Shown piece by piece: positions 1-3,247 of a DNA stretch of 46,833 bases; the first letter of the stretch is position 1; every line of letters begins with the position of its first letter. Source of the stretch: Acidobacteriota bacterium. Lineage in GTDB: Bacteria > Acidobacteriota > Vicinamibacteria > Vicinamibacterales > 2-12-FULL-66-21. Where the stretch lies: assembly GCA_003222675.1 (NCBI GenBank), contig QHWT01000073.1, positions 1 through 46,833 of the forward strand, written 5' to 3'. The position numbers and the translations under genes were made by a program. The notes under the pieces were generated by a model. That model did no database searches. It worked only from the letters and a program-made list of their open reading frames with translations, and was not told where the DNA came from.

Positions 1-314
1 CGGGAACTATCGAGAACGGCGCGGACGGTGGAATACGACAGGCCTGAGAGTGCGGCGATGCGCCGCAGCCCGACGCGCGGCTTCTGGCCCTCCCGGCAGC
101 GCAGGCGCTCGAGATGCGCCCGCGCCGGTCTGGCATCGACCCATCCGGGTACCAGCCCCTTCGCATACCGCGCGTGATACGCCGCTTCCGCGGCGACGCA
201 CGGCCGACAACGGCACCCGTCGTACTGGTAGGCGACACGCGTGCCGTGATCGACCGACCGCCGCCCGCCGAGTCCTTGCGAGCGGCGGTCTTTCCCGGAG
301 CGGCGATCAAGCAT
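1..314 (-). CDS. Cys-motif HTH protein, C-terminus cut by window edge
   Basis: The minus strand from an ATG at 314 stays open to base 1 (104 codons), so the protein is partial. After a basic N-terminus comes HGTRVAYQYDGCRCRPCVAA, a CxCxxC cluster, then a second part VDARPARAHLERLR followed by IAALSGLSYSTVRAVLD, a good helix-turn-helix. From memory, proteins with an HGT...C.C..C segment followed by a 'VDA.PAR.HL..L' HTH are frequent in actinobacterial phages and mobile elements; this resemblance was not tested. The ATG overlaps the TGA of the upstream gene (ATGCTTGA), so it is probably translationally coupled and the last visible gene of the HUH-protein operon. It probably binds DNA and may hold a metal through the cysteines (inference). 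Confidence 0.65.
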   Translation of the reverse strand, partial: MLDRRSGKDRRSQGLGGRRSVDHGTRVAYQYDGCRCRPCVAAEAAYHARYAKGLVPGWVDARPARAHLERLRCREGQKPRVGLRRIAALSGLSYSTVRAVLDSS

Positions 315-537
315 GAATCGCAGGGAGAGCCGACGAATCTTCTTGAACGTACGTGATCAGAACTCGCCCACACGATGAGCAGAGCGCTGGCGGCTTCAGA
401 TCGCAGTCACGAGGCATATCGATGAACACATGCCGCACCTCCAGCTGCCCGTCGCAGATGCAGCGCCGAGCCGCTCTGGTTTGTGTGGCAGCCATCCGTT
501 CGACGCGCGCCCGAAGGCGTGAGAGCGAGTTACGCAA
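307..537 (-). CDS. Small cysteine-rich protein, tandem paralog 3
   Basis: A 76-residue protein from a TTG start at 537. The N-terminus RNSLSRLRARVERMA repeats, with few changes, the N-termini of the two genes directly upstream (735 and 966). After this basic helix come CIC near residue 27 and CSSC near residue 54, two CxC/CxxC pairs spaced like a small zinc ribbon. No homologous family is recognised. The gene follows the previous stop by 42 bases and overlaps the next ATG, fitting one transcript with the HUH and HTH genes. The paralogy and in-line arrangement support real coding despite its size. The TTG start is chosen because it begins the conserved N-terminal block. Confidence 0.6.
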   Translation of the reverse strand: MRNSLSRLRARVERMAATQTRAARRCICDGQLEVRHVFIDMPRDCDLKPPALCSSCGRVLITYVQEDSSALPAIHA

Positions 538-579
538 CGGGCACCTCGTCGAGTTCGAGCCGAATCAGGAGGGTAGGCG

Positions 580-735
580 CTATCGTCCGTCCGACTCAGG
601 CGGTTCGTATCTGACACCGTCCAATTCGCAAACGATGACGATCTGGTCGCGACATATCCGGCAGCCATCACCGACGTGCATCTCTGAGGCGATCCGTTCC
701 ACGCGTGCACGCAGCGCAGCGAGAGACTTCCGCAT
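580..735 (-). CDS. Very small cysteine protein, tandem paralog 2
   Basis: A 51-residue frame beginning MRKSLAALRARVERIA, nearly identical to the start of the gene just upstream (MRKSLASVRARVERLV). It continues with CRIC near residue 25 and a third Cys at 36, then ends in an acidic, proline-containing tail. Its ATG follows the upstream TAG with no base between them (TAG|ATG at 738-733), a typical coupled arrangement. It is shorter than its two paralogs and keeps only one CxxC pair, so it may be a shortened copy. Function is unknown; a metal-binding or DNA/RNA-associated role is only a guess from cysteines and the basic N-terminus. Confidence 0.55.
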   Translation of the reverse strand: MRKSLAALRARVERIASEMHVGDGCRICRDQIVIVCELDGVRYEPPESDGR

Positions 736-966
736 CTATGCCCCCATCCACCTGAACACGTGCACCGGAACGTCATACGTCCGGCCGCACTGGGTACAGG
801 TGACCGGGCCAGCGGCAGCGACAGCATCTTGCTGCTGCTGTCGGTCCTGGACCCACACGAACCGTGACAGCGTGTCGGCTCGACACGTCGCGCACCCTTC
901 CATCGTTCCAAGGCTGGATACCAGCCGCTCCACGCGCGCCCGAACGCTTGCCAGAGACTTTCGCAC
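736..966 (-). CDS. Small cysteine-rich protein, tandem paralog 1
   Basis: A 76-residue protein. The basic N-terminal helix MRKSLASVRARVERLVSSLG is followed by CATC at about residue 25 and CTQC at about residue 57, with a hydrophobic end (YDVPVHVFRWMG). Two CxxC knuckles about 30 residues apart suggest a zinc ribbon (inference from spacing). It starts 9 bases after the stop of the HTH gene and its own stop touches the next start, so it sits inside one operon. It is paralogous to the genes at 580-735 and 307-537. No family recognised. Confidence 0.6.
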   Translation of the reverse strand: MRKSLASVRARVERLVSSLGTMEGCATCRADTLSRFVWVQDRQQQQDAVAAAGPVTCTQCGRTYDVPVHVFRWMGA

Positions 967-975
967 TGAGGCCTC

Positions 976-1443
976 CTATCGACGGTTGTCCTGCTCTCGC
1001 TGAAACGCCTCGATCTGTTCGAGCTTCTCGAGGATCGTCTCGGCGTCGTGTTGGTGTGTGCCGAGCTCCGCGACCGTGCGCGCCGCCCCAAGCCGGACGG
1101 CAGGCGGCATCTTCGGCCGCATCAGCGCCTCGAGCGTCTCGACGGCCTGCGCCGTCAGCGCCTGGACGCGGTGCATGCCGGCCTGGAACATCGCCCGCCG
1201 CGCGTCGGCGAGCTCGCGCTTGAAACCCTCGTCGTTGGTCATCCAGCGGCGCAGCGTCCGCTCGTTCACGCCGCAGCGCTTGGCCGCAGCCGCGATCGTC
1301 TTCTCGGAGAGCAGCGCAAGGATGGCCGTCTCGCGGACCACCTCCGGCTTGGTGCCATGGCCGCCGGCCTTCGCGGAATCGCGGGCATCTGCGGACTTCT
1401 GCGGACTTACGTCCTCGGGTCGTTTCTGGCGCTTCTGGGTCAT
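976..1443 (-). CDS. HTH protein resembling phage terminase small subunit
   Basis: A 155-residue protein. The first 30 residues are charged and probably disordered. Residues about 33-65 form a helix-turn-helix of the kind found in phage small-terminase and transposase-like proteins (ETAILALLSEKTIAAAAKRC, then GVNERTLRRWMTNDEGF). A long helical part follows, with AVRLGAARTVAELG and a charged C-terminal coiled-coil-like end. Small terminases recognise phage DNA, but no large terminase is present here, so the role may instead be as element-borne DNA-binding regulator. It begins 38 bases after the HUH gene and is followed at 9 bases by the first small Cys protein. Moderately sure of the fold, unsure of the function. 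Confidence 0.7.
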   Translation of the reverse strand: MTQKRQKRPEDVSPQKSADARDSAKAGGHGTKPEVVRETAILALLSEKTIAAAAKRCGVNERTLRRWMTNDEGFKRELADARRAMFQAGMHRVQALTAQAVETLEALMRPKMPPAVRLGAARTVAELGTHQHDAETILEKLEQIEAFQREQDNRR

Positions 1444-1481
1444 TCGCTATTGGAGGTACAGGCTGGGCCCGTGCGCGAGAG

Positions 1482-1991
1482 TCACGGATGCAGAGAGACG
1501 GTCACTTCGTCGCGAAGCGCATGCCGGTAGCGTCCGAGAGTGTCGGACCACACCACCTCCCCAGTGAGCGCGGCTGCCTTGGTGGTGTAGAGCGTGATCC
1601 GTCGGCGGCCTGTAACCGGTTGAACGTCCGTGAATCCGTTCCGAAGCCGCCAGATCGCGGCGGGGACGGTGAGGGATTCGGGCGACGTTCCCATAATCAG
1701 GGCATGAACGTGCCACTGTCCAGAGCGGGAGCGCTCAGGAGCGTAGACCCAGCCCAGCGGACATCGCAGCGTGCGAGCCGCCAAGTTGCACCATGTGAAA
1801 GCCTCCCGGCCGGCCTTGGCACAGTTCACCGGATAGACCCGCTTCGGATCGAACGTGAGCGTTACGAAGGATTGCCACGGCAGCGGGCCGAGAAAATGGA
1901 TCCAAGCGTCTTGAAGTGCTTTGCCGCGCAGTCTGTGCCGTCTCCGCACGTCGTCGCCCGGCATCATGACAGGCCATCTAGTCGTCAGCAT
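1482..1991 (-). CDS. HUH-type replication initiator-like endonuclease
   Basis: A 169-residue protein with the three motifs of rolling-circle (HUH) Rep proteins in order: FVTLTFDP (motif 1), GQWHVHALI (motif 2, His-x-His metal site) and LYTTKAA (motif 3, single catalytic Tyr with Lys three residues on). Such enzymes nick one DNA strand and stay bound through the Tyr, starting replication or transfer of plasmids, ssDNA phages and some transposons. I chose the ATG at 1991, which has GGGAG 12 bases upstream; an in-frame TTG at 2012 would add seven residues. It is the first gene of the minus-strand operon running to the window edge. It is shorter than most plasmid Reps and no helicase domain is visible. 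Family is well supported; whether the element is plasmid, phage or satellite is open. Confidence 0.75.
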   Translation of the reverse strand: MLTTRWPVMMPGDDVRRRHRLRGKALQDAWIHFLGPLPWQSFVTLTFDPKRVYPVNCAKAGREAFTWCNLAARTLRCPLGWVYAPERSRSGQWHVHALIMGTSPESLTVPAAIWRLRNGFTDVQPVTGRRRITLYTTKAAALTGEVVWSDTLGRYRHALRDEVTVSLHP

Positions 1992-2012
1992 TTGTAGACA
2001 CGTCTCCCACAA

Positions 2013-2185: not shown

Positions 2186-3247
2186 ATGCCATCCGACCAG
2201 GCCCCTGCTGTTGCACGCGTCATCAGCCCCGCCTTCCAACCCGCCACGGACGCGGCAGGCTCGCCGGCAGATCCACGACAAAACGCGTTCTACTAGCGCC
2301 CGATCGAGGGCGAAAGCGGATCGGGCAAGGAACTCGTCGCCCGCCACATTCACGAGCTCAGCCCGCGGCGCAACGGGCCATTCGTGCCGGTGAACTGCGC
2401 GGCAATCGTCGAGACACTGCTCGAGGCGGAGCTGTTCGGGATTGAAGACCGTACGGCGACCGGCGTGCGCGGTCGGCGCGGCAAGTTCGAGTACGCGCAC
2501 GAGGGGACGTTGTTCCTGGATGAGATCGCGGACCTCTCGTCCGGCGCGCAGGCGAAGCTGCTTCGCGCCATCCAGGAACTGTCGGTGGAACGTGTCGGTA
2601 CGACAGGGGCGCGCCGCGTCGACGTCCGAATCATCGCCGCGACGAACCAGAACCTGGCCGATCTCGTCGCCCGCGGCGCCTTCCGTCTCGATCTGTTCTA
2701 CCGCGTCCAGGGTGTCGAGATCATCGTCCCGCCGCTGAGAGAAAGGCCAGACGACGTTCTCGAGTTGACAGAGCACTTCCTCGAACGGCACAGCACCCTG
2801 CGACGGCTGCGGCTGTCGCTCGCCGCGTCGGAAGCGTTGGTGGCGCACGCCTGGCCGGGCAACGTGCGCGAGCTCGAACGTGTAATCGAGCGCGCAGTGG
2901 CGCTGGCTGAATCCGACGAGCTGCGCCTGGAGGACCTGCCGTCATCGGTGGTTGATCTCTATCGGGGAAACCTGATGTCCTCGTTCGCGCTCGGCCACAC
3001 GATGCGCGCCTGGGGAAGTCGCTATGCGCGCCTCGTGCTGAATCGCTGCGGGTATAACAAACGGAGGGCCTGTCGGGAGCTCGGCATCTCATACCACACG
3101 CTGCGCGACTATCTGAGGGTCTTGCCGGAGCACCAGTACGGGTTCACCAGCGATGTGGATCGCGTGCGCGCGCGTCAGGCCGCGTTGGCTGCGGCGTGTC
3201 CGCCGCAGGCGGAAGCGGCCTCGCGTGAGCCCCACGTCGCGCCTTAG
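2186..3247 (+). pseudogene. Sigma-54-activator-type AAA+ regulator, interrupted by amber codon
   Basis: From 2297 one frame encodes an enhancer-binding-protein AAA+ domain: Walker A GESGSGKE, FVPVNCAAI, ELFG, Walker B GTLFLDEIADL, sensor I IIAATNQNL, arginine-finger region FRLDLFYRV, then NVRELERVIERAV and a Fis-like C-terminal HTH (RRACRELGISYHTLRDYLR). The same frame upstream begins with an ATG at 2186 and reads VISPAFQ, as expected before the AAA+ domain, but is degraded and stopped by TAG at 2294-2296, just before RPIEGESGSG. A GTG restart at 2384 would lose Walker A. The GAFTGA loop that contacts sigma-54 is replaced by RTATGV, so even an intact version may not open sigma-54 promoters in the usual way. 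No receiver or GAF domain is present. Either a pseudogene or a sequence error near 2240-2296. Confidence 0.7.

Follow-up and report, generated by a model that had tools for sequence, protein, structure and literature searches.

Six short genes crowd against one end of an acidobacterial contig, and the question that they raise is whether together they form a single mobile unit. The window, by which is meant the whole stretch of 46,833 nucleotides that was analysed, comprises bases 1-46833 of contig C62 (76,326 bases), and its first base is therefore also the end of the contig. A sequence-only reading had placed six minus-strand genes in a tight run in the left 2 kb, spaced by 38, 9, 0 and 42 bases and then overlapping by 8, and the open reading frames and all five spacings are as it listed them. 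It had also seen no capsid, integrase or mobilisation gene, and none is present among the eight proteins scanned between window positions 3 and 3768; a search around the six-gene run at the contig edge for an integrase, an excisionase or a tRNA fragment likewise found none.

All six genes lie on the minus strand. The first (positions 1482-2012, 176 aa) encodes an HUH rolling-circle replication initiator (Rep) of the REP_ORF2-G2P type; its frame opens with the TTG start listed previously, and the first in-frame ATG is at 1991. A junction of 38 bases (1444-1481, minus strand) separates it from the gene for a terminase-small-subunit-like helix-turn-helix (HTH) protein (976-1443, 155 aa). There follow three small proteins: A (736-966, 76 aa), a zinc ribbon with a CxxC...CxxC pattern; B (580-735, 51 aa); and C (307-537, 76 aa), a diverged zinc ribbon with a TTG start. 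A Cys-motif HTH protein (Cys-HTH; 3-314, 104 aa) is cut short where the contig stops. The N-terminus that the three small proteins were said to share can be seen, but protein B lacks the second Cys pair, looks truncated and has probably decayed. The window genes are coding beyond chance and their protein sequences are under selection, as dN/dS in the scored pairs shows. Between C62 and contig C107 of the same genome, dN/dS is 0.18 for HTH and 0.27 for Cys-HTH, and it is 0.24 between the two C107 copies of Cys-HTH. The zinc ribbon gives 0.25 between C107 and C57 and 0.57, on few changes, between C62 and the nearest C107 copy; for one more zinc-ribbon pair, saturation precluded a value. For the HUH gene, the value is 0.35 between C62 and G012, at a near-saturated dS of 1.7, and 0.20 between G012 and L036.

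The first protein contains the FVTLTF, HVH and YTTK motifs that had been read from it, and these HUH motifs hold up in profile comparison. Pfam REP_ORF2-G2P matches residues 48-145 (E 6.3e-6), scoring 26.8 bits against a curated cut-off of 27.8; H101 and H103 are conserved in all six aligned proteins, and Y142 and K145 in five of the six. Among the relatives described below, L039, L041 and L042 score above the cut-off for this family and L021 and L036 below it, while L022 has no REP_ORF2-G2P match at E 0.01. In tblastn searches (E up to 1), Rep retrieved 19 phage records, all of Microviridae type (best E 1e-6, coverage below 80%), and 27 small plasmids of staphylococcal type (best E 3e-3). Microviridae-type initiators and small rolling-circle plasmids are thus alike to the present proteins in Rep family and motifs, but the relatives found here differ from them in being chromosomally integrated, with integrases and no capsid gene. 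Fold comparison supports the assignment more weakly: with a structure model built from six sequences (mean pLDDT 64.8), the sole Foldseek match at E ≤0.001 was SIRV1 ORF119, an HUH Rep, and lower rows hold geminivirus, AAV and circovirus Rep domains amid unrelated ferredoxin-like proteins. The gene is single-copy in its own genome. A candidate origin hairpin 5′ of Rep is not convincing, since its 8-bp stem was equalled by 23 of 300 shuffles, and a stem of at least 7 bp is absent upstream of Rep in all four relatives tested.

Across all searches, seven distinct Rep loci other than the window were recovered. The HUH Rep occurs in two of 148 other relatives (E 1e-5), in three of 395 others of a phylum-wide draw (E 1e-8), one of them already found in the former set, and at five loci of a named genome collection, two of which, going by the length of the contig and the position of the match, had already been counted. 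With Rep alone as query, that collection gave 101 stretches and no relative, and an alignment query did better; viral contigs, also searched with Rep alone, gave three stretches that fit the pattern and no relative. At five of the seven loci, a tyrosine integrase (Int) lies within 3 kb of Rep. It was recognised by Pfam PF00589 in G041, L036, L039 and L041 and by identity in G012, where its two pieces are 84% and 82% identical to the L036 integrase and the insertion that splits it looks, by reading, IS21-like; the stretches examined of L040 and L042 contain no integrase. Rep is followed by a small, excisionase-like HTH protein (Xis) and then by Int at four of the seven loci (G012, G041, L036 and L039), and the integrase end of each is flanked by a tRNA or tmRNA gene, although in L039 two cargo genes separate the integrase from tRNA-Arg. 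The small protein belongs to HTH_17 in three of these loci (under the cut-off in G041) and to DUF4224 in L039; the xis reading frame of L021 lies within L021:2109-2585. The window Rep is 45-49% identical to the Reps of these Rep-Xis-Int elements.

Three of the four Rep-Xis-Int loci are bounded by exact direct repeats (att), one copy of each pair being the 3′ end of a tmRNA or tRNA. These repeats measure 26 bp at a spacing of 18,778 in G012 (tmRNA), 26 bp at a spacing of 6,977 in L036 (tmRNA) and 53 bp at a spacing of 6,558 in L039 (tRNA-Arg). A second copy is absent in 12 kb at G041, where its contig begins, in 12 kb for the tRNA-Leu of L021, and in the stretches examined for the tRNAs of L030, L011 and L032. 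Between the repeats lie, as cargo, an HsdM-type methylase in G012, an N6/N4 methylase in L036 and NOV_C, AAA_21 and DUF4276 proteins in L039. The Rep family, the gene order and the exact att repeats of the relatives are established. Related serine resolvases are present in G012 and L036 and also in C57 and C114. The L039 element (L039:5344-11978) is a bounded 6.6-kb unit of Thioalkalivibrio sp. XN8 comprising Rep, the DUF4224 protein, the integrase, AAA_21 and DUF4276. The 18.8-kb G012 element includes a terminase-large-like gene (L043:748-2753; phrog_2, E 1.4e-18), and its 170-aa partner has no PHROG match. Among the open-access papers searched, no title describes this family of Rep elements; with subscription journals largely missing from that set, absence is not thereby established.

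The second protein of the run resembles the small terminase subunits of phages. Terminase-small families are the best PHROG for all four homologues scanned (window, C107, L029 and L030), the top three matches of a PDB profile search are phage "Gene 1 protein"/terminase-small chains (E 0.007-0.015), and a single-sequence model (pLDDT 76.6) predicts two long helices after an HTH. In a phage collection, seven of the eight records matched by HTH belong to satellite phages of Streptococcus (E 2e-6 to 3e-9), among them Javan292, in which the match falls late in a 13.5-kb element with the integrase at the opposite end. These likenesses could point to a phage-satellite-like element in which Rep would copy the circle, HTH would steer the packaging motor of a helper phage, and the zinc ribbons would have accessory or interference roles. 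Such a combination of rolling-circle Rep and terminase-small protein is possible but weak as an explanation, and we consider it unlikely. Foldseek with the HTH model returned nothing below E 0.001, the leading match being the phage protein phBC6A51 (0.08), closely followed by TetR proteins; the best PHROG of one satellite protein is a family of unknown function rather than a terminase; Rep and HTH are paired in the window only; and none of the three bounded Rep elements has a counterpart of HTH, one of them carrying the terminase-large-like gene instead. It is also unlikely that the run represents a lineage joining a Microviridae-like HUH initiator to a terminase-small protein as a helper-packaged, rolling-circle satellite with zinc ribbons as interference or packaging adaptors. 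Phage-inducible chromosomal islands (PICIs) and satellites have an integrase, a small HTH regulator or excisionase, a replication gene, att sites and sometimes a terminase-small gene (PMC6092414). Agreement of the window with that description is only partial. HTH is a terminase-small homologue by PHROG and PDB profile, with a fold search that is not significant, whereas no integrase with att is in view, the replication gene is an HUH Rep rather than a primase-Rep, and the bounded relatives lack the terminase-small-like protein.

Homologues of HTH occur in three of the 148 other relatives (E 1e-8) and in two of the 395 others of the phylum-wide draw (E 1e-15); plasmids searched with HTH gave no match, and viral contigs searched with an HTH alignment gave 46 stretches that fit the pattern and no relative. 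Several of the copies stand beside tRNA genes. In the same genome as the window, the C107 copy, 88% identical, has its start roughly 150 bp away from a half-copy of tRNA-Lys(CTT) in which 45 of 47 bases are as in the intact gene on C141, itself near a contig end and adjoined by an integrase gene. A third half-copy lies at C24:298, and the 3′ half of tRNA-Lys(CTT) is present three times in this genome, G000 (C141:58327-59490, L057; C107:1-8155, L009; C24:1-342, L056); these probably mark a single island, or two in tandem, at tRNA-Lys that the assembly has split. The order HTH, zinc ribbons, Cys-HTH recurs in C107. Window positions 1-348 have a 96% identical stretch there, the DNA match between the two ends at window 1406, and the alignment of the two HTH proteins extends as far as the start codon. 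Rep in the window occupies the place of the att side of C107, which has the tRNA-Lys half-copy and a regulatory region where the window has the 38-base junction. The zinc ribbons were found in their own genome only, on C62, C107 and C57 (none in the 148 other relatives or in the 395 others of the phylum-wide draw), and that on C57 lies beside tRNA-Thr with an integrase remnant and a resolvase. In other genomes, G025:C27 has an integrase remnant, a tRNA-Lys half and HTH in the order of the C107 island; on G025:C8, HTH comes after tRNA-Pro, and the small gene past it has, by reading, a similar N-terminus and no Cys pairs. A weaker homologue with an internal stop lies less than 4 kb from tRNA-Ser and an integrase in G108, another is near a gene that reads as tape-measure-like in G411, and G005 holds a broken piece at a contig end.

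The proposal that the run is one mobile unit can therefore be upheld in part. A mobile origin is supported, because the HUH relatives lie in elements bounded by tRNA or tmRNA repeats and further copies of the HTH and zinc-ribbon genes occupy tRNA-Lys and tRNA-Thr islands of this genome; the six genes as one conserved, coupled unit are not. Since the Rep family in relatives adjoins integration genes in small, sharply bounded elements, the run probably represents part of a mobile island that has integrated into the chromosome. On balance, we take the leftmost 2 kb of the window for the margin of a mosaic integrative island of the tRNA type, whose Xis, Int and att have either been deleted or are situated beyond the contig end. 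Against this stand the stop of the contig at base 1 and the other side of the run, where no island boundary is defined in the unstranded region between Rep and a divergent sigma-54 activator gene (2013-2185) and neither a tRNA fragment nor a convincing origin hairpin is present.

Every biochemical step of the cycle that can be proposed for such an element is extrapolated from known families. In the intact relatives, the integrase would recombine the tRNA or tmRNA 3′ end with the element's own copy, and Xis would aid excision. Rep would nick the excised circle through Tyr142, with the metal held by His101 and His103, and the circle would be copied as a rolling circle and then re-insert. In the window copy, loss of Xis, Int and att has probably fused Rep across 38 bases to a second module, composed of the terminase-small-like HTH, the zinc ribbons and Cys-HTH, that elsewhere in the genome lies just inside one att of the tRNA-Lys island. 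Should the full circle run Rep, Xis, Int, att, HTH, zinc ribbons and Cys-HTH, the window would be the same minus Xis, Int and att. Because the single copies of the zinc ribbon and of HTH that lie near tRNAs are in part remnants, the order Rep-Xis-Int-att-HTH combines evidence from separate loci. A DNA-binding protein is the probable product of the second module, with a role in controlling the element or in marking its DNA.

The idea with which the earlier reading began, that the run is a complete native unit, an autonomous replicon or mobile element whose Rep and HTH module have belonged to each other from the start, draws on the single strand, the tight spacing and the purifying selection on the genes. 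It predicted that the genes would co-occur elsewhere, but Rep and HTH never share a genome among the 148 relatives and the 395 phylum-wide others, and the Rep-HTH fusion is thus a single case; moreover, the HTH module stands without Rep at the att sites of C107, and Rep without HTH in the four Rep-Xis-Int elements. We regard this explanation as improbable. Also improbable is a stranded, decaying chromosomal relic, now immobile, in which scattered genes are kept: the truncated look of protein B, the lack of an integrase in view and the integrase remnants among the C57 and C107 neighbours speak for it, the low dN/dS of HTH and Cys-HTH and the intact Rep motif residues speak against it, and for the window copy it is compatible with the island reading.

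The earlier reading could name no plasmid or phage type that the set matches. A partial name can be given: Rep fits pSAM2-like Rep-Xis-Int elements and HTH fits phage terminase small subunits. pSAM2 has a replicase-excisionase-integrase operon and a RepSA with described motifs (PMC3218068). Actinomycete integrative elements of this type (AICEs) share with the Rep relatives a Rep, an excisionase and an integrase in one run, in an element at a tRNA, and a rolling-circle HUH Rep; two diverged relatives, L041 (E 6e-6) and L042 (E 3e-5), also score against the RepSA (pSAM2) profile, though under the cut-off. They differ in that the Rep here is of the REP_ORF2-G2P family, that the relatives' records are from Acidobacteria and Thioalkalivibrio, and that the window copy lacks the Rep-Xis-Int run found at four of the seven other Rep loci. 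Repeats at a tRNA, exact in G012, L036 and L039, were not found near the window genes, which end at the contig edge. No FtsK/SpoIIIE-type transfer protein is present among the four L036 proteins, the eight L039 proteins and the few from G012 that were scanned, the last covering part of its 18.8-kb element, and the window island is itself truncated by the contig end. These comparisons indicate that pSAM2-like replicate-excise-integrate modules exist outside the actinomycetes, with another Rep family. The DNA methylases or AAA/DUF4276 genes found in the elements with exact ends probably serve in defence, and excision and replication can be tested directly in these three, one of them in a named Thioalkalivibrio strain. 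We read the window itself as a mosaic fragment of a mobile island rather than a novel type of system; what it contributes is a lead, the terminase-small-like partner, and greater interest attaches to the bounded relatives.

Beyond the undefined boundary, window positions 2186-3247 (plus strand) hold a short gene for a sigma-54 activator, in which an in-frame TAG immediately precedes the Walker A motif. This gene (2384-3247) was considered as the site of island insertion, cut before Walker A, and rejected: the sigma-54 frame of G012 is also short (382 aa versus 316 in the window), and the same YYRPIEGESG-like junction peptide is common to both, so the gene is not taken as cut by the island. In 12 of the 14 best matches from other genomes, the sigma-54 frames measure 488-801 aa, and the junction peptide occurs in one of seven other-genome sigma-54 loci examined.

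At the opposite edge, C62 and C107 overlap C114 exactly, by 72 bases (window 1-72) and 128 bases (L010:1-128, L009:1-128), respectively. As both run into C114, that contig, with its resolvase, may follow both, and the exact ends common to the three suggest a repeat collapsed or broken in assembly. Beside Cys-HTH genes lie two proteins that are HEPN-like by eye, L009:4432-4989 and L010:318-1028. PADLOC, with three weak matches in all over nine proteins, gave none for the latter and RTasHEPN (E 0.0048) for the former; they may represent a toxin or defence pair.
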